Virus record (IMG/VR): IMGVR_UViG_3300029286_001043
Span: 1-28,227 of that record
Source: a virus
Direction: 5' to 3' (one strand)
Length of the DNA: 28,227 nt
The notes under the pieces are model-generated. The model saw nothing but the letters and a program-made list of their open reading frames with translations. It had not been told where the DNA came from and searched no databases. Position 1 is the stretch's first letter. Every line of letters begins with the position of its first letter. The translations under genes were made by a program, and so were the position numbers. Of this stretch, positions 57 to 10,334 are shown one piece after another.

Positions 57-407
57 TTATGAACCTAATGGTATCCAATAAACAGACTTTGTTCCAATTG
101 CTCCTTCTATAATCGTATAAACATTACCATCGGCTGTCTTCATCTGACAGTCGTAATAGTACATACCGACTAAATCATTCATTTCAGAAGCTGGAATAGT
201 TAGTGTGTAAATACCCAATTCTGGGCTAGGAATACTTGTAATAGTTTTACTGATAACTGCATCACTATCCCCGTCACTCTTGTTCTTCTTTATAGTAAAG
301 AATAGAGTCCAACCGGTAATGTCAATTGCAACATTATCAGTATCCTCAAAAATAAACTGTTCACTGAATGTATCGCCCCTGTAAACTGTGAAATTGGTCT
401 CTTGCAT
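57..407 (-). CDS. BppU N-terminal-like baseplate/tail protein
   Basis: This 116-residue protein has the pattern of the N-terminal beta domain of baseplate upper proteins of Gram-positive siphophages (BppU_N, DUF2479). It opens with a YRGDTF motif near residue 9, followed by a DITGW motif near 29 and an FTIKK strand. Further on come a G-x-Y-T-L-T-I-P segment and a GMYYYD-x-Q strand near 82-88, then an acidic-glycine strand close to the C-terminus. The family is linked to attachment of receptor-binding parts to the baseplate. The start at 407 follows a GAGGG ribosome binding site inside the end of the preceding radical SAM gene, so the two genes are probably translated together. Its place after the enzymes embeds them in the tail/baseplate module. 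The assignment rests on motif resemblance. Confidence 0.55.
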   Translation of the reverse strand: MQETNFTVYRGDTFSEQFIFEDTDNVAIDITGWTLFFTIKKNKSDGDSDAVISKTITSIPSPELGIYTLTIPASEMNDLVGMYYYDCQMKTADGNVYTIIEGAIGTKSVYWIPLGS

Positions 408-408
408 A

Positions 409-1575
409 TTATCCCTCTTTTTCTTTAGTACTTATTAATAATGATAGTTTTAAAACATCTTCCTGAATGGATGCTACCTCTTCAGTCAAATCAGCCAAAA
501 CATGAGATAGAGCATCGAACTTTCTATCCTGAATATCATTTAACTCTGTAGGTAGATACTCCAAAGCTAAATAATTCTCGGCTTTACAGATATTACAATA
601 CTTCTTGATAGGTTCGTAAAGACTTCCATTTACTAAGTAATGGGTAATAATACAAGAATGACAAGTCTTTGCTGCTGGGCAATTGCCATAACACTTCGTT
701 TGATCCTTATCAATCTGTAAGAACATACCCCGTATTATAGGTTCCCCAGTAAGTAAATTACCCAACTTAAATATTCTATTGCTCGCGGCTCTATGGCAAG
801 GGTAAATCTCACCGTTAGGTAACACAGCGATGTAATCCCGACCTGCTCCACAAAAGGCTAAATCAGGTTCTATCTCGCCATTTAGGGTCTTTAAACACTT
901 GTCTACAAAGGCAATATTAATCAGCCGACCTCTCTTTAAAAGAAATCTGCGATAGTTGTAAACTAACTTCAATTGATTGGCATATGTATTTACAGAAGCA
1001 TCGTCCCAATCTGCTTCCATAACTGCATGATGCATTATGTTCCTTACTCCTAATGATATTATAAATTTAATGTTCTCATATAGCCTAGCCACAGATTTAG
1101 GAGTATAGGTCATACGTATATTCGTATCAGGAAATAACTTAAGGATACCTATAGTATTCTGGATTATCACATCAAAGTTACTACCTAATCTATACTGAAG
1201 TGTTGTATCTCTATCTCCATCTATACTTACCTGCATACGAAAACCTAATTCTTTATATCTTTTAAACATCTCCTCATCAAAATAGGTACCGTTAGTAGAG
1301 ATGTAAAATTTAACTTTATCTGCCCATAATATTTTAGCATACTCAGCTAGTTCTAATACTAATTGAGGGTACAATAAAGGCTCACCGCCAAAGAATGTCA
1401 AAGAGAAGCCTTCCGGATTGATCTCATGTAGTTTATCTAGTATCAATTTGCCGTCGGCAGAGGTCAATGTCATTGGCGATTGCTTGTGAAAACAATACAA
1501 ACATTTAAGATTGCATTCTTCAGTGATAAAAATATCAGCGCTGTTTAACGAATAATCCTCAACTAGTAAATTCAT
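409..1575 (-). CDS. Radical SAM/SPASM protein (third of three)
   Basis: A 388-residue radical SAM enzyme. The CxxxCxxC cluster motif is C21, C25 and C28, GGEP is at 63-66 and the canonical SIDG strand is at 117-120. A SPASM-type auxiliary cluster region follows: C242 and C260 in the expected C-x12-G-x4-C spacing, then C295, C299, C305, C308 and a late CxxC at 327/330. SPASM enzymes usually modify peptides or proteins, for example by thioether cross-linking or sulfatase maturation. About 55 residues after the last CxxC form a predicted helical tail not seen in the two neighbouring enzymes. A strong AAGGAG site precedes the start, and the frame overlaps the upstream enzyme gene by 17 bases. It is more divergent than the other two, so it may do a different step. 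The substrate is unknown; the Cys-rich protein upstream is the natural candidate. Confidence 0.9.
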   Translation of the reverse strand: MNLLVEDYSLNSADIFITEECNLKCLYCFHKQSPMTLTSADGKLILDKLHEINPEGFSLTFFGGEPLLYPQLVLELAEYAKILWADKVKFYISTNGTYFDEEMFKRYKELGFRMQVSIDGDRDTTLQYRLGSNFDVIIQNTIGILKLFPDTNIRMTYTPKSVARLYENIKFIISLGVRNIMHHAVMEADWDDASVNTYANQLKLVYNYRRFLLKRGRLINIAFVDKCLKTLNGEIEPDLAFCGAGRDYIAVLPNGEIYPCHRAASNRIFKLGNLLTGEPIIRGMFLQIDKDQTKCYGNCPAAKTCHSCIITHYLVNGSLYEPIKKYCNICKAENYLALEYLPTELNDIQDRKFDALSHVLADLTEEVASIQEDVLKLSLLISTKEKEG

Positions 1576-2584
1576 AGCTCTCCTTATATTTGTTGAACAT
1601 TCTTATTAATCCCTTATTCATACTACAAAAACCGGGGTATGGTTTGAAGTAACCACCAGTCTTTCGATAATTACCAGCTAAACATTTTGTATTTGGGCAA
1701 ATGTATCTAATATTACATCCTTTACAATACTTAAACATATACTCGTCTTTATTTGACTGTACCTGTTTCATTAAATCTAATTTATTCCAATCTATTCCTT
1801 TATAAATATCACCTAATTGATTATCTTTATTTGTATACCAACCATCACATTGCCAGATGCCGCCTTCTGGATCTATTGCTAATCGCTCTAATCCACATCC
1901 ACAAAACTTCCTTGTTTCATATGGACTACCACAACCACCGTTCCAAAAGGAACTCTGTAATACCTTGTAATCTAATCTAAACTCCTTTATTATCTCTAAA
2001 TATCCGGTAATGTATTTCTCTATCTCTTCAGGAGTAAAATCATAATGCTGTTTGTAGTAACAATTTATATTAATGAATCCTAAATTAGCCAGATATCTGT
2101 AATCCTCTACCATATTATCGTAGTTTGTTACTAGGAAATTTATGCTTCCTTGCTTCTCTAAAAATAACTTCTTGGTGAATGGTTGTGCTTCGACTTTATT
2201 ACATATGCTTCCGTACTTCTCATATGCATCCCCCATCGACCAAACTAAACGATAGTTGTTATTCTTAATCAAGTAGTTATATACATCTTCAGTTATCAAA
2301 GAACCATTTGTGTTCGAATGAAACATCACCTGTGGGTACTTTTCAATGGCATACTTAGTAACATCAAAATTTAAGAATGGCTCACCGCCCCACAAGAATA
2401 TGTAAAAATTAGGTGTTACTTTTAAATTACTATAGATGAACTTAATTGAATCTATAATAACTTCTTTAGACATACTCTGTTTGTTCCTGGAACCTTTACT
2501 GTAGCAGAAAGAACAATCTGAGTTACAATCATTAGTCAGGACTAAATAAACTGACTTGTACCTAGTTTGGCTTTGAGTATCCAT
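1559..2584 (-). CDS. Radical SAM/SPASM protein (second of three)
   Basis: A 341-residue radical SAM enzyme with C20, C24 and C27 as the CxxxCxxC motif and GGEP at 66-69. The usual SIDG strand reads SMGD (116-119). The SPASM region has C228 and C230, then C246, followed by C287, C290, C296, C301 and C320. It closely parallels the preceding enzyme: both share GGEP followed by L-N-F and a K-Y-A-[IV]-E-K-Y helix, an S-M-G segment followed by K/R-Y-G, and a C-terminal C-L-x-x-N-Y-R ... F-K-P-x-P-x-x-C segment. The two are probably paralogues from a duplication. The gene starts inside the end of the upstream enzyme gene (23-base overlap) with only a weak GGA site, which suggests translational coupling. 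Reaction and substrate are not determinable from sequence. Confidence 0.9.
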   Translation of the reverse strand: MDTQSQTRYKSVYLVLTNDCNSDCSFCYSKGSRNKQSMSKEVIIDSIKFIYSNLKVTPNFYIFLWGGEPFLNFDVTKYAIEKYPQVMFHSNTNGSLITEDVYNYLIKNNNYRLVWSMGDAYEKYGSICNKVEAQPFTKKLFLEKQGSINFLVTNYDNMVEDYRYLANLGFININCYYKQHYDFTPEEIEKYITGYLEIIKEFRLDYKVLQSSFWNGGCGSPYETRKFCGCGLERLAIDPEGGIWQCDGWYTNKDNQLGDIYKGIDWNKLDLMKQVQSNKDEYMFKYCKGCNIRYICPNTKCLAGNYRKTGGYFKPYPGFCSMNKGLIRMFNKYKESYEFTS

Positions 2585-3659
2585 ACTTGTCCAATATATA
2601 CGTATAAGTGGCTGATTCTATTGCTCTTAAGTTACACACTTCTGGAGTCGGTTTAAACAAATTATGGTTAAATCTGTAATTCTCACCTAAACAAAGGGCA
2701 TTAGTACATAACTCTTTATTTCCTAAAGGACAATCTGTGCAATACTTAGTAAGTTCGGTATTCCAGTTCGGGATGTCTTTGAATATTCTATCCTTATCAA
2801 TATCGGTATAAATCGTTCCAATCTTAAACTCCGGGTAAACTATAAAGTAATCACATGGAAAGATATTACCTTCCCAATCAACCGCTAGATAATGAAACCC
2901 AGAACCACAAAACAACCCTAATGGAACTGTGGGCAATCCTTGTCGTTTCCTTGCTATGTTACTTCTAAAGGCAGTATCTAACGTACTAGTAACATGCTTA
3001 TAGGAATATACAATATCGACTATCTTCTGAAATAATTTGATGTACTCGTCCTTATGCTCCATGGCATATTTGCTCTGTTTGGGAGCATTGAACCTTAGAT
3101 TCCTTATTCCAGTCTTGCATAGATATTCAACATCTTTAAGTGTACTTTCATCTATAGTCTCAACAACATAATGTACATCACCTTTAGTATGCTTAACTAA
3201 ATCGAGTATTGGCTGTACCGTTTCTGCCAACTTATCTCCATACCTAGTTTTCAAAGAACCCATACTAAAACTTACAACTAAATTGTTCTTGTGCTTAAAA
3301 CACCACTCTCTAATTTCAGGGTTCTCAAGAAGTATCAATCCGTTAGTCACTAACATAAATCTGTGCATTGAATACTTCTCTACTGCATACTTAACTGCTT
3401 CAAAGTTTAAGAGTGGTTCTCCTCCAAACAATACAAATAGTAGTTTCTGATCCTTAATCTTTTTAGACATAAAAACAATTGTATCGTCTAAAACCTTAGT
3501 TGACATCATTGTGTCTTTTCTGAAACCTTCTGGCTGATAACAATAAGAACAACTCAAATTGCAACCTTGTGAAAGTATCAAATTAACATTCACAAAATCA
3601 CGATGTAGATTATCCGATGTCAAATCTTGTAACTCTAAGGCCATGTGTACGGGTTGCAT
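2562..3659 (-). CDS. Radical SAM/SPASM protein (first of three)
   Basis: A 365-residue radical SAM enzyme. The iron-sulfur motif is C33, C37 and C40, GGEP is at 79-82, and the SIDG position reads SMGS (132-135). The SPASM region comprises C251 and C269 (C-x12-G-x4-C), then C307, C310, C318, C323 and C342. The Cys number and order fit a SPASM enzyme binding auxiliary 4Fe-4S clusters. The start at 3659 overlaps the end of the Cys-rich protein gene by 25 bases. No strong ribosome binding site is visible at M1 or at M6, so coupling to the upstream gene is likely and the exact start is uncertain. No PqqD/RRE-type recognition domain is recognisable at its N-terminus. Tight linkage suggests the upstream Cys-rich protein as substrate or partner (inference). 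Confidence 0.9.
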   Translation of the reverse strand: MQPVHMALELQDLTSDNLHRDFVNVNLILSQGCNLSCSYCYQPEGFRKDTMMSTKVLDDTIVFMSKKIKDQKLLFVLFGGEPLLNFEAVKYAVEKYSMHRFMLVTNGLILLENPEIREWCFKHKNNLVVSFSMGSLKTRYGDKLAETVQPILDLVKHTKGDVHYVVETIDESTLKDVEYLCKTGIRNLRFNAPKQSKYAMEHKDEYIKLFQKIVDIVYSYKHVTSTLDTAFRSNIARKRQGLPTVPLGLFCGSGFHYLAVDWEGNIFPCDYFIVYPEFKIGTIYTDIDKDRIFKDIPNWNTELTKYCTDCPLGNKELCTNALCLGENYRFNHNLFKPTPEVCNLRAIESATYTYILDKYGYSKPN

Positions 3660-4432
3660 TTACAGTTCCATGCTGAATGGTCATGGGCTCCTTGATACTC
3701 ACAAGTTCCCCAATTGGAACCTGGAGGTGTATAATTACACATATTCCATGGTACAGTATTGTCTCCAGGTGTTATCGTACCACCGAAAGAACAATCATTA
3801 CAACCACTTGGATAATTACACGTTCCAGTATAGACCTTATAAGGATAAGTTGTTGCTGAACTTAAGTTAATACTTGCGCATCGATAAGCATGAACAAAAT
3901 AATTACAACCACATCCTTGGTCGTCGTCACAAGCAACACTAGGTGTGTAGTATGTAAAATCAAAACCACAGTCCTGGCAATACTGACATTGTTCTGCTTC
4001 ACAAATACAAGAAGCCATCAAGGCCTGTAACGTGGATCTTAATTCGGATATATGAGAACCTTTTTGTTTAGTGTCATGTTCAGTAATTGTAGGGTCTGTC
4101 CAACTAATCGCTGCTGTACTATCTTGAGGACAATAGTAGGAATCTGCCGCACAATCTCCTTCTTTAATACCATCATCTATGGCCGCTCTTAGTTCATCTA
4201 TATGTATCTTCCTAATTTTAGTTGAACGAGCAGTAATTGTCGAATCTGTGAATGTTACGTTTGTAATACCACGCCGTGTCAATTCCGCGTTTACCGCCGT
4301 CCTTAACTCATCTATATGAACTTTCCTATGTTTAGTACCATGGGCAGTTAATGTTGGGTCAGTAAAGGCTATAGTGTTAGCAGCACATTGCTTCGGCGCG
4401 TTAGTATGTGGATTTCCGTATGTTTTAGCCAT
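3635..4432 (-). CDS. ELR-repeat, Cys-rich tail-tip protein; candidate substrate
   Basis: A 265-residue protein in two halves. Residues 23-141 hold three copies of a repeat beginning [FW]-T-D-[PS]-T-[LI]-T and ending H-I-x-E-L-R (about 23-55, 61-93 and 111-141). To my knowledge similar ELR-type repeats occur in some bacterial secreted or surface proteins. Residues 142-259 hold 16 of the 19 cysteines, several as C-N-Y or T-C-[NE]-Y, with many Tyr, Trp, Gly and Pro. No lysine follows 199 except K258. There is no signal peptide. A good AGGAG site precedes the start at 4432. It lies directly after two tail fibre/baseplate genes and overlaps the first of three radical SAM/SPASM genes. It may be a receptor-binding tip whose cysteines are cross-linked by those enzymes, or a zinc/disulfide-rich adhesin unrelated to them. 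Existence is secure; function is inferred. Confidence 0.8.
   Translation of the reverse strand: MAKTYGNPHTNAPKQCAANTIAFTDPTLTAHGTKHRKVHIDELRTAVNAELTRRGITNVTFTDSTITARSTKIRKIHIDELRAAIDDGIKEGDCAADSYYCPQDSTAAISWTDPTITEHDTKQKGSHISELRSTLQALMASCICEAEQCQYCQDCGFDFTYYTPSVACDDDQGCGCNYFVHAYRCASINLSSATTYPYKVYTGTCNYPSGCNDCSFGGTITPGDNTVPWNMCNYTPPGSNWGTCEYQGAHDHSAWNCKCNPYTWP
4010..4366 (-). repeat. Three-copy ELR-type protein repeat
   Basis: Coding repeat within the Cys-rich protein gene: three units of about 33 residues at roughly 4268-4366, 4154-4252 and 4010-4102. All keep T-D-x-T-x-T and H-I-x-E-L-R. Copies one and two are the closest (K-x-R-K-[VI]-H-I-D-E-L-R). Copy three is more diverged, and two cysteines lie in the linker before it. 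Confidence 0.8.
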
Positions 4433-4446
4433 TCTATTCTCCTATA

Positions 4447-5286
4447 TTAAGCACCGTATGTAACATCATCCCAGCTAGCTGTTGTACCATTTGATACCAA
4501 AGCATACCCGGATTTACCTGATTGTGCAGGAAGTAATCCAGTTAAGGTTACACCGCTAGTAACAAAACTACGTACATCTTTAATACTTGAAGCTGTTATT
4601 GTTGTTTGACCTACAGTTAAAGTAATTTCTGCTAATGTAACTAACCCACCATAACTAGGAGGAGTAGTTGCATTTAAAGTAGCAATTACTGCACCAGCAG
4701 CATTAACTTGTATAGCATAAACATTTGTTCCGGCCACAGGCGCGGCCATTAACGGTGTTAATTGATCTACAATATCATAATTTGCAGTTCCATAGTTAAC
4801 TCTACCCGCTCTTACCCTACAATACATACTTGCTGCAACTGTAGGTTCTACTTTTAAAAATAAATCCATTATTTGAGGATTTGATCTTAAAGTATAAACA
4901 AATCCTTGAAGTGTAGATCCAGAATAAGAACACACACCAACAATTAAATCATTAGCTTGAAGACTTCCTGCCGCTATACCTAATATTTCCATGTAATCAA
5001 CCGCCGCACTTCCAGTATATGTCCAGCGTAATACAACATACGTTAAAGTAGAACTTACAGTAACAGTAGCTGCAGTAGTTGTCCTAATTCTTTCCTGATG
5101 AGTTCCATCTGTTATTTCACAAGATAATGCAGATAAACTTACACTTACATCAGATACTTTAGTTAGATAACCACCAGAATAAATCCCGGTTTTTCTAACA
5201 TCTTTTCCTATTCTATTTACTATCGAAGAATCTACTGGGTCGAAGTAAGCTACTGTACGTTCCTGAACACCTATATCATTAGGCAT
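4447..5286 (-). CDS. Tail fibre or baseplate-attached adhesin
   Basis: A 279-residue beta-rich protein, high in Thr, Ser, Val and Ala. The C-terminal 35 residues carry a segment (LPAQSGKSG, then ALVSNGTTASWDD) of the kind often found in phage tail fibres and collar proteins, where it joins repeated fibre modules. Residues 75-130 read as alternating strands with aromatic and acidic positions. The first 40 residues (DIGVQERTVAYFDP) are polar and may be the attachment part. A strong AAGGAGG site precedes the start. It sits between a gpI-like baseplate protein and the Cys-rich protein, the usual place for host-recognition parts. No enzymatic motif is visible. A fibre role is likely, but which piece of the fibre it forms is unknown. 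Confidence 0.6.
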   Translation of the reverse strand: MPNDIGVQERTVAYFDPVDSSIVNRIGKDVRKTGIYSGGYLTKVSDVSVSLSALSCEITDGTHQERIRTTTAATVTVSSTLTYVVLRWTYTGSAAVDYMEILGIAAGSLQANDLIVGVCSYSGSTLQGFVYTLRSNPQIMDLFLKVEPTVAASMYCRVRAGRVNYGTANYDIVDQLTPLMAAPVAGTNVYAIQVNAAGAVIATLNATTPPSYGGLVTLAEITLTVGQTTITASSIKDVRSFVTSGVTLTGLLPAQSGKSGYALVSNGTTASWDDVTYGA

Positions 5287-5306: not shown

Positions 5307-6584
5307 TTATACATAAATTGTAAAAACTACTCTCAATGCGATTCCGGCTACTTTCGCTATACTCGGAAAAGTTGCTTCAGCTACCATTGTTGTTCCATCA
5401 TTTAAAAATAAACCTAATTCAGTAATACCAGCTTGAACCACAGTGGTATCAATATTTAATGTAAATTCTATTCGATCAGAATAAACAGTATATGTAACAC
5501 CACTACCTGATATTACTGGGGTTTCAAGTTGAATATCTGCCTCATTAGGAAGAGTATTAATTCGTCCGGTTCCTAATTGGTATTTAGTAATCCCATCCAA
5601 AAATGAAGTCTTAGTATAGTCAAAAAATGCGTGAGTAGGCTGAATTACCGCATTAGAATCAAAATATAAATCACTACTATCATCAAAGTATTTTCGAGTA
5701 AACTCCCAATCCCTATTTACACAAGCATTTACATTGCCCAGGCTGGTATAAACTTCGCCGCTTTCAGTAGTAATTGGATTTAAAAACATAGAATAATTAA
5801 CTACTACATTTACAGGACGAACCGACTCAACATATTCAGTTAAATCAGTCTTCATTCCGGCTATAAATAGATAATCATCAGAGGCGTCGCCGAATGACTT
5901 ATTAAGAACTATCTCTACACCGATATGTGGAGACTTATAATAAGAAGCAGACAACCCAACTGGATTTTCATTTTCATGTCCAGTAAACCATTCTTCTTGA
6001 GTAAAAGTAGCATAATCCGAAGTATACATATCCCAAATATTCAAATTAAATCCTAATACATACGCAATATGACTAAGAGAAGTATAAGTACCTTTCTCCT
6101 TATACCAATCTATAACTTGAATTAATTGTCTTCTCTTTTCATCTATAGTAGCAGTATCTGCTCTAATTATCTGATACCCGACCAGATCAGCTAGGTATTG
6201 AATATAATCCGTCCCAACATTATATTTATCTAATAACTTTTCTATATCATTTATATTTCCGATCCACGTCCCGGTTAAAATACCACATTCTTCTAAAAAC
6301 TCTTGAAGAACAGTGGAATCTCGGAACTTAAGTGGTACCAATTCCATTAAATCTACATATTTTGCATAGTTTTCACCCTCACTAAATACTGATGTGATAG
6401 TCAAATCTAAAACTTCAGCAGCAATATATTTTTCTTGAGCTAAAGTTATAGTAGCCGTACTAACAATCTGAATATTTCCTTCAGAATCAAAATTCAAATC
6501 GATAACATCGTCGAAATTTATCCCAGTACTTATGCCTTTACCTAATTCATCAAAATAAAGTTTATCAAATCTAAAAGTTGACAT
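5307..6584 (-). CDS. P2 gpI-like baseplate tail protein
   Basis: A 425-residue protein whose middle resembles phage tail protein I (P2 gpI, the functional counterpart of part of T4 gp7). Residues about 95-185 contain an L-x-x-x-x-x-x-G-x-D-Y-I-Q-Y-L-A-D-L-V-G-Y segment, then a helix with RRQLI and the turn KEKGTYTSL leading to AYVLGFN. That KxKGT turn is characteristic of the family. gpI proteins bridge the baseplate wedge and the tail fibres. The C-terminal 150 residues are beta-rich and may carry a fibre-docking domain. The gene follows two genes after a baseplate J-like gene, as gpJ-gpI pairs do in P2-like phages. The start lies one base past the upstream stop, with no close ribosome site, so coupling is likely. 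Confidence 0.65.
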   Translation of the reverse strand: MSTFRFDKLYFDELGKGISTGINFDDVIDLNFDSEGNIQIVSTATITLAQEKYIAAEVLDLTITSVFSEGENYAKYVDLMELVPLKFRDSTVLQEFLEECGILTGTWIGNINDIEKLLDKYNVGTDYIQYLADLVGYQIIRADTATIDEKRRQLIQVIDWYKEKGTYTSLSHIAYVLGFNLNIWDMYTSDYATFTQEEWFTGHENENPVGLSASYYKSPHIGVEIVLNKSFGDASDDYLFIAGMKTDLTEYVESVRPVNVVVNYSMFLNPITTESGEVYTSLGNVNACVNRDWEFTRKYFDDSSDLYFDSNAVIQPTHAFFDYTKTSFLDGITKYQLGTGRINTLPNEADIQLETPVISGSGVTYTVYSDRIEFTLNIDTTVVQAGITELGLFLNDGTTMVAEATFPSIAKVAGIALRVVFTIYV

Positions 6585-6585
6585 C

Positions 6586-7083
6586 TTATTGTAGTTTTAT
6601 CCTCATTTGAACTACCATCGAATCCCCAGATAAAATTGTCCTAGTCATAGCTAAATCTACAAATGCAATCAATTTACCTGAATTATCAGAAGTCGTTGCC
6701 AAATAGGCGGTAGTTACTGGACCTATATTTCCAGCGACCGCCGTAAATGTCAACTCTTTACTGACTATTCGATAATCTGTCGCATCTAATTCTTTAGTCG
6801 GAAATCCAACAGTCGACCGCTCTAATGTTTGAGCTGAATACCCATTTCCACTCATTTCATTCTGTATCGTAATCAGAGTATCCGTTTCGACTAATGTATC
6901 ATTGCAAAGACGAACATAGAATCCGGCGGGAGTATACGCTGCCTCGCCTCTGAAAAAACTCTCCAAAATAGATTCTTCCCCTTGATCAACGAGTGAATTT
7001 TTTTTGTCCATACCCCAAATTTCTTTACCGTCTCTAATATGTCTTATTGTCCACCACGAATCATAAAATTTGTGTCTGCCCAT
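6586..7083 (-). CDS. Small virion protein, probably baseplate/fibre linker
   Basis: A 165-residue protein between the baseplate J-like and gpI-like genes. It starts with basic and Trp-rich residues (GRHKFYDSWWTIRHIRDG), followed by a beta-rich body. The end (RTILSGDSMVVQMRIKL) resembles small phage virion proteins whose C-terminus reads L-x-G-D-x-L-x-V-x-[YF]-x-I-x-L. A strong AAGGAGG site precedes the start. No enzymatic motifs, cysteine pairs or membrane segments are present. From context it is a structural part of the baseplate or of fibre attachment; I cannot name the protein. Confidence 0.5.
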   Translation of the reverse strand: MGRHKFYDSWWTIRHIRDGKEIWGMDKKNSLVDQGEESILESFFRGEAAYTPAGFYVRLCNDTLVETDTLITIQNEMSGNGYSAQTLERSTVGFPTKELDATDYRIVSKELTFTAVAGNIGPVTTAYLATTSDNSGKLIAFVDLAMTRTILSGDSMVVQMRIKLQ

Positions 7084-7097
7084 TAAATCCTCCTTAA

Positions 7098-8786
7098 CTA
7101 TGCTACATACCCTATTAGTGTAACATCAACCTCTAATAATTTAGCAATCTGATCTTGATTCAAAACTATATCACCATCTTCATTTTGTTTATACCTTACA
7201 TAAATTTCGTCACTAGGCCCTAAAGCCGGAGAAATATCTAATGATACTTCGCCATTTACATAATTAATTGTACCATTGGTAATAGTATAAGTAGAATCTA
7301 TATCTACAAACGCCCCTGCTCCATCATCAGTTGCTACAATCTCGTCATTAACATAGAGATTTACTGATCCTTCTAATATCGGAAGTACGGATAAATTCTC
7401 TCCCCAATCGTGCAACGAATTGTGGGTAGCATCGAGATCTTTTCTGATCTGAAATTCTGAATGACTATAAGATACCCCACTTACACTTTCAATAGTAGAT
7501 ACTAAATCTCCAATCCTCTTATCTGTCCCTAATTTAGTCGTAGTCCCTAATACAAATTCGTCGGCAATCGCAGTTTCAACAGCCGATTGCATATCAGATA
7601 ACGTTCGTCCTTTAATAACCTTCAAATCTAGAGTAGGTACAACATCAATTACTTCAGGATCAACATAAGAATATCGTACCGTCATTAATGATTTAGTATA
7701 TAAATATTCAGATAAATCAGCTTCAAAGGTGGCAGAAGGTAATTCCCAATTCTGAAGTATTACACATAATTTAACTTGGTTATACATATCATAATTAGGA
7801 GGAGTCTCTTCCGCTTCCCCCCAAACATTTGAATCTGCGACGCCAGCATAATTGTTTATTATCGAAACAAAATCAGCTTTAGTTACAGCTCTATCTCCAG
7901 TAGCAAAAACGCTTGGAGCTTCAGCCCTAATTTCCTCCAACGATTCTGCATCATCTCCGCCTAAGAATACGGTAGTATTAGTAACTGTACAAGCTTTAGA
8001 AGTTCCTAACGTATCATAAATAGCATCATTAAGAGTAGTAACTCGAGCTAATTCATAAACATTTCCGCTTAGTCCTTCAGATTTAACATATTTAATCTCA
8101 ATAACATCTCCTAAATCTGGAGCTTTACCGAAGACGTCATTGCCAAATAGAATTGTAACATTATCATCTAATTCGGGTCTTAGAACATAATGAAGCGAAG
8201 TTGTAGTAGAATCGATAAAAGAAGTTACTTTAGTCCATTCAACACCATTTACTGATACTGTCAAATTAGTATTTTCTATGGAGTCATCATCAATTAGATA
8301 TTCCTGATCAGTATTTCCAGTTGAAGTATAATCTAAAGTTATTAACTCGCCCTGTAACGCCTCTGCATCGACATACGTCTGCCCAACCATAATTGCTACA
8401 TCATCAGCCACTAAATATTTAATTCCACTGCTCGTTTGACATTCAGTATATTTAGGAATAAAAACAATTTGAGTATGTGCTCCGCCAGTTAAAGTAAATC
8501 TAAGAGTACCAGTAGCAGACACTTTTCGTTTTGGAATATAATTCAATAACCTAACTAAGTTAATAATACTAGATTTGTTCTTAGCTGTCATTATGTATGA
8601 TTCTTCGGCTCTTCTTTCAACATAATACAATACTAAGTTTGCAACTGCCGCAAACAATTCGATCAGCATAGACCCAGTTGAAGAACGATAAGTATCTTTC
8701 CACGCCCCACGCTCTTTAAGCCTATTGGTAAGCTGTGTTACCAGATCATCAAAATCATAATCTACAAAAGAAAGCTGATTGCTCAT
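7098..8786 (-). CDS. Baseplate wedge protein, gp6/baseplate J-like
   Basis: A 562-residue protein with the hallmark start of the baseplate J/T4 gp6 family: a helical N-terminal third with GSMLIELFAAVANL followed by YYVERRAEESYI (residues about 43-68) and LVRLLNYIPKRKVSATG just after. A long beta-rich body follows, with the usual tail-wedge features such as a V-T-K-A-D-F segment near residue 300. The family forms the wedge ring that holds the central hub and, in contractile systems, triggers sheath contraction. It follows the gp25-like gene by 8 bases, the standard gp25-gp6 order. An AGGGGG site precedes the start. The C-terminal 80 residues include an extra beta segment (VNLYVNDEIV) not expected in the shortest family members. 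Confidence 0.85.
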   Translation of the reverse strand: MSNQLSFVDYDFDDLVTQLTNRLKERGAWKDTYRSSTGSMLIELFAAVANLVLYYVERRAEESYIMTAKNKSSIINLVRLLNYIPKRKVSATGTLRFTLTGGAHTQIVFIPKYTECQTSSGIKYLVADDVAIMVGQTYVDAEALQGELITLDYTSTGNTDQEYLIDDDSIENTNLTVSVNGVEWTKVTSFIDSTTTSLHYVLRPELDDNVTILFGNDVFGKAPDLGDVIEIKYVKSEGLSGNVYELARVTTLNDAIYDTLGTSKACTVTNTTVFLGGDDAESLEEIRAEAPSVFATGDRAVTKADFVSIINNYAGVADSNVWGEAEETPPNYDMYNQVKLCVILQNWELPSATFEADLSEYLYTKSLMTVRYSYVDPEVIDVVPTLDLKVIKGRTLSDMQSAVETAIADEFVLGTTTKLGTDKRIGDLVSTIESVSGVSYSHSEFQIRKDLDATHNSLHDWGENLSVLPILEGSVNLYVNDEIVATDDGAGAFVDIDSTYTITNGTINYVNGEVSLDISPALGPSDEIYVRYKQNEDGDIVLNQDQIAKLLEVDVTLIGYVA

Positions 8787-9194: not shown

Positions 9195-10334
9195 TTACCA
9201 TTCTATTAGAACAAACCCACCTGTTCCTGCCCCACCTATGTATGAACCAGTATTACCTTCACTAGAACCACTACCGCCACCACCATATCCAACCCCTGGA
9301 TTTCCATTACCCGCTGCACTAGTTCCAGCACCACCTGTACCAAAATTCGACCCTCCACCTGCCCCACTATAGTTGCCATTAGCATCAGCAGTAGCTCCAT
9401 TCCCACCACCAAATCCAGTTCCGGGTAAAGAAGGTATGCCTGCAAGTCCATCCTTACTTCCCGAGTACCTATCGCCTCCTAATCCACCTGCTTCACCATA
9501 TTCTTTAGAAATTGCAGTTCCACCACGACCACCACCAGTTACACTATCCCCATTAAAAGTAGTGTTTCCTCCAGCTGTGGGATTTTGAACTGACCATCTA
9601 CCACCCTGTCCTCCAGCTCCAACTACATAAGCATAGTTATTACCTGGAGTAGTAGTTAAAGGAATCATTACTTTAGCACCACCTCCACCACCGCCACCAC
9701 CACCGTTGGTATCTGCTCCGCCTGCTCCTCCACCACCACCCGCTTGAATAGTATAAAGAATCTGTGTAACCCCTGTAGGGCAAAGCCAATTTCCAGTTCC
9801 TGAAGTATATAACTGTTTACCACTTGAATTTATACCTGAATATCCTGAAGTACCGATTCCAGAATAACCACTTCGCCCAGAATAACCTGAAACCCCAATT
9901 TGTCCACTATACCCAGAATACCCAGCTGGAGTGGTATAAATTAATTTAGTACCATTATAAGAAACAACTTTTCCATTACCAATATCAGTTTCATCTATTT
10001 CTTTCGTTCCTACTATCGACAGATCAGCAGTAGAAACTCCTGCACTGTAAAATATTCCACATTTACTCCCAGTTAAATGTTCTACTGCTGTAGTACTTTC
10101 TTTAGCTCTTGCTATTGTATAAACATTAGGGGCAGAATAACTCACCTCTACGAATTCTTTATTTGGATCATTGGCTGGATTAGCATAAATAACGCTATCC
10201 CAAATTAATACTATAAAGGTACCTGCCGAAGTAGGAAAATTATGTCCAGCAGTTAAAGTCATTGATAAAGCAACATCGGTAACTGTTGAAGCTAAATATG
10301 CATATCCAAAATTTACTCTTAAATATTTACTCAT
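9195..10334 (-). CDS. Glycine-rich tail fibre/adhesin with GYSG repeats
   Basis: A 379-residue fibre protein. Residues 1-130 are a beta-rich domain. Residues about 137-170 hold a short collagen-like tract of GYSG, VSG, RSG and GTSG units. Residues 180-379 form a glycine-rich domain with runs of up to nine Gly and many G-G-x-G stretches, ending in F-V-L-I-E-W. Poly-Gly adhesin domains with a hydrophobic C-terminal strand occur in phage receptor-binding proteins such as T-even gp38 and Gly-rich fibre tips. The start overlaps the stop of the PAAR gene (ATGA), so translation is coupled. Direct linkage to the spike tip hints that it is part of the central tip rather than a side fibre (inference). 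Very low-complexity DNA here can cause assembly or alignment artefacts. Confidence 0.7.
   Translation of the reverse strand: MSKYLRVNFGYAYLASTVTDVALSMTLTAGHNFPTSAGTFIVLIWDSVIYANPANDPNKEFVEVSYSAPNVYTIARAKESTTAVEHLTGSKCGIFYSAGVSTADLSIVGTKEIDETDIGNGKVVSYNGTKLIYTTPAGYSGYSGQIGVSGYSGRSGYSGIGTSGYSGINSSGKQLYTSGTGNWLCPTGVTQILYTIQAGGGGGAGGADTNGGGGGGGGGAKVMIPLTTTPGNNYAYVVGAGGQGGRWSVQNPTAGGNTTFNGDSVTGGGRGGTAISKEYGEAGGLGGDRYSGSKDGLAGIPSLPGTGFGGGNGATADANGNYSGAGGGSNFGTGGAGTSAAGNGNPGVGYGGGGSGSSEGNTGSYIGGAGTGGFVLIEW
9825..9926 (-). repeat. GYSG collagen-like coding repeat
   Basis: Thirty-four codons encoding irregular repeats of Gly-Tyr-Ser-Gly, Val-Ser-Gly and Thr-Ser-Gly, an extended flexible linker in the fibre protein gene. 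On the plus strand it shows as repeated CC(A/T)GAATA-like units. Confidence 0.7.

Follow-up and report, generated by a model that had tools for sequence, protein, structure and literature searches.

We analysed a 28,227-nucleotide stretch (positions 1 to 28,227, hereafter the window) of the 92,227-base virus record IMGVR_UViG_3300029286_001043. On its minus strand, the window carries a gene for a Cys-rich protein, CysR, followed by three consecutive genes for radical S-adenosylmethionine (SAM) enzymes of the SPASM type, rSAM-1, rSAM-2, and rSAM-3 (table 1). Successive genes overlap by 25 nt (CysR/rSAM-1), 23 nt (rSAM-1/rSAM-2), and 17 nt (rSAM-2/rSAM-3), and the block is flanked by a fibre-like gene upstream and a BppU-like gene downstream. 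An initial annotation made from the sequence alone had described a 265-aa protein with 19 Cys overlapping the first radical SAM gene, in a block lying between tail fibre/baseplate genes and a BppU-like gene; its coordinates, strand, and gene order all proved correct, as did the overlap, and the placement was borne out, with a BppU_N match below cut-off.

Table 1. Positions of the CysR block, its neighbours in the window, and the Cys-rich open reading frames (ORFs) of phage SPN3US (window coordinates unless a locus, L, is given; dN/dS, ratio of nonsynonymous to synonymous substitution rates)
Feature	Position	Strand	Evidence
CysR, putative substrate, 265 aa, Cys-rich	3635..4432	-	19 Cys, 13 invariant; dN/dS 0.04-0.06
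N-terminal part of CysR with three helical repeats (HIxELR / ExxRR); putative recognition or docking domain	4010..4375	-	
CysR C-terminal Cys-rich core (CICEAEQCQYCQDCG...WNCKCNPYTW)	3641..4009	-	invariant Cys and E147, D154, D169, Y151, W241, W255
rSAM-1, radical SAM/SPASM enzyme, 365 aa	2562..3659	-	PF04055 2e-10; PapB-like NF047865 1e-36, below cut-off
rSAM-2, radical SAM/SPASM enzyme, 341 aa	1559..2584	-	PF04055 3e-9; PapB-like NF047865 1e-27
rSAM-3, radical SAM/SPASM enzyme, 388 aa	409..1575	-	PF04055 2e-17; PapB-like NF047865 1e-51
SPN3US Cys-rich ORFs	L142:3097-3489, 3500-3904		equivalent places in L145-L149
Tail-fibre-like gene immediately upstream of CysR, outside the mobile cassette	4447..5286	-	position; C-terminus likeness to L004 gene
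BppU_N-like / tail fibre assembly-like gene	57..407	-	PF10651 E 6e-4, below cut-off; phrog_3304 1e-7
Tail genes: Tail_P2_I-like, Gp80-like, baseplate J	5307..8786	-	PF04865 2e-12; PF23140 2e-9; phrog_219 4e-70

Among the 95 genes compared in the 92-kb record (all of at least 100 aa), CysR ranks first in Cys density. Fourteen of its Cys lie in the last 45% of the protein (residue 146 onward), a stretch for which the initial annotation had counted 16, a number reached from residue 142. Among 17 homologues, the divergent L066 included, 13 Cys are invariant, together with the six other residues listed for the core in table 1, and W229 is nearly so. CysR and its enzymes are real genes under purifying selection, with the same dN/dS values (0.04-0.06) on both sides.

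All three enzymes exceed the gathering score of the Pfam Radical_SAM family (PF04055) and retain the CX3CX2C motif, the Cys triplet of which is invariant in their relatives. SPASM-type Cys had been ascribed to all of them; the complete seven-Cys pattern is found in rSAM-1 and rSAM-2, where it is invariant over 11-12 relatives, and rSAM-3 retains eight further Cys beyond CX3CX2C. PF13186 is matched above its gathering score by rSAM-3 only, rSAM-1 being marginally below, and the TIGR04085 cut-off is exceeded by rSAM-1 and rSAM-2. The best NCBIfam match of the three is the PapB ranthipeptide maturase NF047865 (176, 97, and 127 bits against a cut-off of 340), and PapB was the top match of every SPASM enzyme tested, in the window and in relatives. 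rSAM-3 is 50-52% identical to its relatives, and its closest solved structure is PDB 5wgg (E 1.6e-20), which we take to be CteB.

A search of viral contigs with CysR and one homologue recovered 18 loci, and searches with rSAM-3 recovered six loci in viral contigs and four in bacterial genomes, partly on the same contigs. The bacterial loci belong to three Omnitrophota genomes, one locus lying on the closed chromosome of Ca. Velamenicoccus archaeovorus, and to one bin labelled Ruminococcaceae; contigs from IMG/VR and other metagenomes may be fragments or mis-binned, and the Ruminococcaceae bin is to be treated cautiously. The order CysR, rSAM-1, rSAM-2, rSAM-3 is kept at every locus of this strict family long enough to show it, and the four genes were found in order at all 18 CysR-derived loci and in the Omnitrophota genomes, barring early contig ends. 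Enzymes recurring regularly without the Cys-rich gene, which the initial annotation had named as the finding that would speak against it, were not seen in the strict family, where all four genes always co-occur. Because the block recurs in order in independent phages, it is not a chance assembly. The relatives checked carry an extra gene of 126-131 aa between CysR and rSAM-1 (e.g., L012:9721-10101), which the window lacks. The model of the 126-aa gene product of the Omnitrophota cassettes (predicted local distance difference test [pLDDT] 77) had no PDB match with E <= 0.001, and in view of this lack of a confident fold match, it is not demonstrated to be a RiPP recognition element (RRE; RiPP, ribosomally synthesized and post-translationally modified peptide). 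Among 384 Omnitrophota genomes, the CysR search identified four, one of them through a weak match within a long reading frame, while the query P0007 found only its own genome; P0005 had no match in named phages, and P0004 alone had none in viral contigs.

The tail modules that surround the block are of different types. The baseplate genes of the window phage are T4/P2-type, whereas the Omnitrophota prophages encode a lambda-type tip protein J, NlpC/P60, tail L, and portal proteins, and in these prophages tip protein J/fibre lies on one side of the cassette and an Lcl_C gene on the other. In BLAST comparisons of the window with L004, L017, L020, and L028, the cassette genes were the only ones in common. 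Since otherwise unlike tail types share these genes alone, the cassette moves as a unit. Velamenicoccus also harbours two sibling prophages (the second being L055) whose flanks are 65-82% identical (75% for tip protein J, 80% for the fibre, 74% for the small post-cassette gene, and 77% for the Lcl_C lectin-like gene) and whose cassettes differ. The HIxELR protein of the first prophage is at L028:6537-7274. At the corresponding place, the L055 cassette encodes another protein (L055:6647-7222), which has three weak HIxELR repeats and ends in CCECECTCTCTCTCTCTCTCTCTCQEQCCSECDCGD (a CTCTCT... tail), and the enzymes of this cassette are another PapB-like SPASM enzyme and a B12-binding radical SAM protein; this second cassette type is also present in viral contig L062. 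The putative substrate and its enzymes have thus been exchanged jointly while the flanking tail genes were left in place, and no other observation argues as strongly for their acting on one another. The B12-binding enzyme (L055:4003-5355, minus strand; L062:7291-8640) is PhpK-like by a weak score, which suggests methylation or another second chemistry in the CTCTCT-type cassette.

Linkage between Cys-rich proteins and radical SAM genes extends beyond the strict family. Of 50,697 named phage records, only 21 and 77 were matched by tblastn with two radical SAM enzymes of this kind. An enzyme-based scan gathered 79 loci, which form 67 clusters at 70% identity, and a Cys-dense ORF (at least 10 Cys in 60 aa, within 2.5 kb of the radical SAM gene) lies near the enzyme in 30 of these clusters. 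Such ORFs are concentrated close to the enzyme (27/273 within 1 kb versus 3/375 beyond 2 kb; Fisher p 3e-8). The reverse search, with four Cys-rich proteins as queries and no enzyme, returned 54 loci in 38 clusters; a PapB-like gene occurs within about 1 kb in 32 of them, three are cut by a contig end, and three have none. The co-occurrence that the initial annotation had proposed to check is therefore observed from the Cys-rich side as well, a PapB-like radical SAM gene adjoining in 32 of the 35 testable clusters. As for the three clusters lacking an enzyme, L203/L204 correspond to a weak match and L202 has only 1.7 kb downstream. Cys-rich proteins with no radical SAM gene in the stretch examined were seen at L170:7326-8327 and L202:3275-3835. 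Fusobacterium phiKSUM, Phass-1, and Campylobacter phage CPt10 (annotation only) have radical SAM genes and no Cys-dense neighbour that we could see. Two human-faecal records labelled 'Bacteriophage sp.' (MT835472.1 and MT835702.1) contain a SCIFF-type maturase amid SecD/SecF-like and other cellular genes; because bacterial housekeeping genes surround the radical SAM gene, they are probably not phage and were left unused.

The proteins of this wider class are related through their N-terminal parts. The N-terminal repeats of CysR are common to other phage proteins linked to radical SAM genes, and a profile-profile comparison of the CysR N-terminus with that of the wider Cys-rich family gave a probability of 95% (E 3.7e-8), from one pair of small alignments only; a third N-terminal group matched with a probability of 87%. 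The ExxRR signature is present in 55 of 77 Cys-rich proteins versus 54 of 827 other ORFs. At L195:7988-8755 and L199:3515-4789, the arrangement is the opposite, the Cys core preceding a terminal ExxRR domain, and a radical SAM gene lies directly upstream. The cores vary, with repeats such as CNCNFCTC, CDCNYCTC, CSGGCSG, TCDCQSRT, and CQTECELNC, in which Cys are mostly spaced as CxxxC and CxxC and the remainder is largely Gly, Ser, and Thr; the largest proteins reach 765 aa and 160 Cys. Genes lying upstream have matches in tape-measure, tail-fibre, and baseplate families, and at L071:2994-4349, a protein that itself resembles tail-fibre families has the Cys-rich stretch as its C-terminus. Cys-rich repeats also end a 931-aa protein without PHROG match at L106:620-3415.

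A related arrangement is found in six SPN3US-like jumbo phages: SPN3US and STsAS of Salmonella, CR5 of Cronobacter, and Asesino, Phobos, and SNUABM_29 of Erwinia. Each carries a tandem pair of ORFs (127-134 aa, 20-21 Cys) that are either absent from the annotation or annotated in another frame (SPN3US_0166); the pair is flanked by the gene of a virion structural protein on one side and by two radical SAM genes on the other. dN/dS in the Cys-rich frame is 0.04-0.15 where computable, which indicates that these ORFs are real genes. In SPN3US, a Cys motif of this kind recurs in a third ORF, also short, that follows them (3920-4126). Virion proteomics identified the adjacent gp168-170 as likely tail-fibre/baseplate proteins (PMC10052503); gp163-167 and the Cys-rich ORFs are not discussed in the main texts of the SPN3US papers examined.

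Taken together, these data favour, with a probability of about 0.7, a scenario in which the four genes form a mobile maturation cassette of the phage tail module, responsible for a RiPP-like maturation of a tail-tip protein. CysR would be produced as a precursor, the N-terminal HIxELR/ExxRR repeats of which would recruit the enzymes and/or dock the protein on the tail, and the three PapB-like enzymes would work on its C-terminal Cys-rich core before assembly. The most likely products would be thioether cross-links from Cys to nearby residues, with 2 Da lost per bond, and the outcome a rigid element, stable to proteases and redox conditions, at the receptor-binding tip or close to it. The parts of this scenario do not stand equally firm: CysR is very probably the substrate of the enzymes and its product is probably present in the virion, a C-S cross-link is somewhat favoured as the modification, and a role in host contact is evenly balanced. 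That the enzymes mature the Cys-rich protein in a RiPP-like process had already been proposed in the initial annotation, and co-occurrence and joint exchange support it at the level of genomics. As in RiPP pathways, a presumed precursor lies beside its enzymes and combines an apparent shared recognition part at the N-terminus with variable cores, and the candidate substrates are encoded in tail modules or, in L071, apparently fused to a tail protein.

The systems closest to this one are several SPASM maturases and one kind of tail-tip module. Small bacterial peptides and some enzymes are known targets of radical SAM cross-linking, and QhpD is a SPASM enzyme that makes several Cys-acid thioethers inside a larger protein. 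The QhpD-type maturase model (TIGR03906) gives only 57-79 bits here against a cut-off of 453, no amine dehydrogenase genes were noticed in the window, and the QhpD-style Cys-acid cross-links mentioned in the initial annotation are only one option among several. The SCIFF maturase CteB (TIGR03974), a thioether former acting on a Cys-rich peptide, resembles rSAM-3 through the 5wgg structure, but scores are 72-95 bits against a cut-off of 425 and the substrate is unrelated. Regularly spaced target Cys and one or more SPASM enzymes are shared with the CXXX-repeat/Cys-repeat RiPP maturases (TIGR04115, CefB, CcpM), which differ in that scores are far under their cut-offs and that they belong to bacterial clusters rather than tail modules. 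The PapB/freyrasin maturase (NF047865) likewise combines radical SAM and SPASM domains and has a Cys-rich precursor with a leader as substrate; it forms Cys-Asp/Glu thioethers, is promiscuous in Cys-acid spacing, and accepts CXnD with n 0-6 (PMC9413430). In contrast to PapB, the SPASM enzymes described here score 97-208 bits against the cut-off of 340, three different enzymes accompany one substrate, and that substrate is a large tail-module protein and not a short peptide. Finally, tail-tip receptor-binding modules with Lcl_C/DUF1566 lectin-like proteins have a parallel in the Omnitrophota prophages, where the cassette is placed between tip protein J/fibre and an Lcl_C gene, with the difference that diversity would arise here from swapping of an enzyme-substrate cassette. 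The process thus appears to work like RiPP maturation without belonging to any curated RiPP family tested.

Several observations weigh against a thioether-forming maturation of CysR. None of the three window enzymes reaches the cut-off of a curated maturase, and their N-termini, with 19-32 residues ahead of the initial Cys of CX3CX2C, are too short to accommodate a fused RRE, a further difference from PapB. CysR contains no CX3D/E, the motif preferred by PapB, although PapB tolerates other spacings and CysR does have conserved Cys-acid pairs at shorter ones (CICE, CEAE, CQD, and CD). The predicted structure of CysR is uninformative (pLDDT 35). In the wider class, 37 of the 67 enzyme clusters have no Cys-dense ORF nearby, implying that the enzymes there serve other purposes or substrates. 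At L003 (8001-8387 and 8400-8720), on a 96-kb viral contig, two short HIxELR proteins precede two radical SAM genes, and their cores are rich in Tyr, His, Ser, and Asn and poor in Cys, so that their chemistry cannot be based on Cys alone.

The L003 proteins fit an explanation in which CysR is modified without thioethers, for instance through C-C or C-O bonding (cyclophanes on Trp or Tyr), epimerisation, methylation, or removal of thiols, with Cys serving partly for disulfides. The conserved aromatic residues of CysR (W241, W255, and Y151, and the nearly invariant W229) point the same way, as do the replacement of part of the enzyme set by a weakly methyltransferase-like B12-binding enzyme in L055/L062 and the position of the enzymes outside all curated chemistry families. 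We nevertheless regard this explanation as unlikely, given that Cys is the sole constant of the wider-class cores, where the predominance of Gly, Ser, and Thr leaves few aromatic acceptors, and that PapB heads the matches of every SPASM enzyme tested. That same composition, with Gly, Ser, and Thr as the chief neighbours of Cys, makes other acceptors likely in the wider class.

The Cys-rich protein might instead be a metal-binding, Fe-S-binding, or disulfide-bonded tail component, the enzymes being directed at the tail fibre, the host envelope, DNA, or a small molecule. Its CxxC and CxC pairs could bind metals and many phage radical SAM genes lack a Cys-dense ORF, but the near-obligate pairing from both search directions and the exchange of protein and enzymes together, with the fibre left in place, make this improbable. 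Nor does the cassette seem likely to make a secreted or released RiPP-type peptide (a bacteriocin or signal) that merely resides in a late operon, its product being outside the virion. Although the leader/core layout, the several enzymes, and the Cys-rich core do resemble bacterial RiPP clusters, the cassette is embedded among tail genes and has no protease, exporter, or immunity gene within it (such genes could lie elsewhere), the L071 stretch is fused to a tail-fibre protein, and the largest proteins (765 aa, 160 Cys) exceed the usual size of RiPPs; we hold this possibility to be still more doubtful. Sulfatase maturation was rejected, no sulfatase having been noticed, as was viperin-like defence (33-55 bits against a cut-off of 180).

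The oxygen sensitivity of radical SAM enzymes had led the initial annotation to propose a host living with little oxygen. The anaerobic Omnitrophota relatives agree with this idea. Strict anoxia is nevertheless unnecessary, since members of the class are also found in jumbo phages that infect Salmonella, Cronobacter, and Erwinia.

Of the genes around the block, the tail-fibre-like gene upstream of CysR obtained no confident family in the Pfam and PHROG comparison, and its C-terminus resembles that of the fibre-like gene at the equivalent place in L004. The phrog_3304 match of the downstream gene corresponds to 'L-shaped tail fiber protein assembly'. Among the tail genes, phrog_219 is a baseplate wedge family and Tail_P2_I is marginally under its cut-off. 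Putative fibre genes at 9195-10334 of the window and at L032:10748-11854 contain collagen-like GYSGxSGYSG repeats. Elsewhere in L032 (17917-19998; about 45.9-48.0 kb of the virus record), CLRGNTKISLLDGTEPTIEEMAEK occurs in a reading frame and resembles the beginning of an intein.

SPASM maturation is a known process, for which a phage tail module would be a new kind of target. We found no report of such a system, or of radical SAM cross-linking on a virus particle, in openly licensed papers, a scope that leaves out bioRxiv preprints altogether and the majority of subscription journals and makes the novelty provisional. On balance, we lean towards a phage-wide process of virion maturation, in which RiPP-like tail-tip precursors with a shared ExxRR/HIxELR domain and an interchangeable Cys-rich core would be cross-linked by co-encoded SPASM enzymes, and in which the cassette would be swapped between phages as a host-contact module, across dozens of lineages from Omnitrophota to Salmonella, with substrates partly hidden by mis-annotation. 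The proposal is open to experiment, because amber-mutant and virion-proteomics methods exist for SPN3US and the proteome of Ca. Velamenicoccus archaeovorus is already public (PXD025008, named in PMC12583861). If it holds, the tail tips that phages make are chemically hardened and can be swapped; many phage genes annotated as 'radical SAM domain', those of SPN3US-like phages included, would acquire a function, as would the Cys-rich ORFs missed by annotation, and phages would offer many natural enzyme-substrate pairs for peptide cross-linking.

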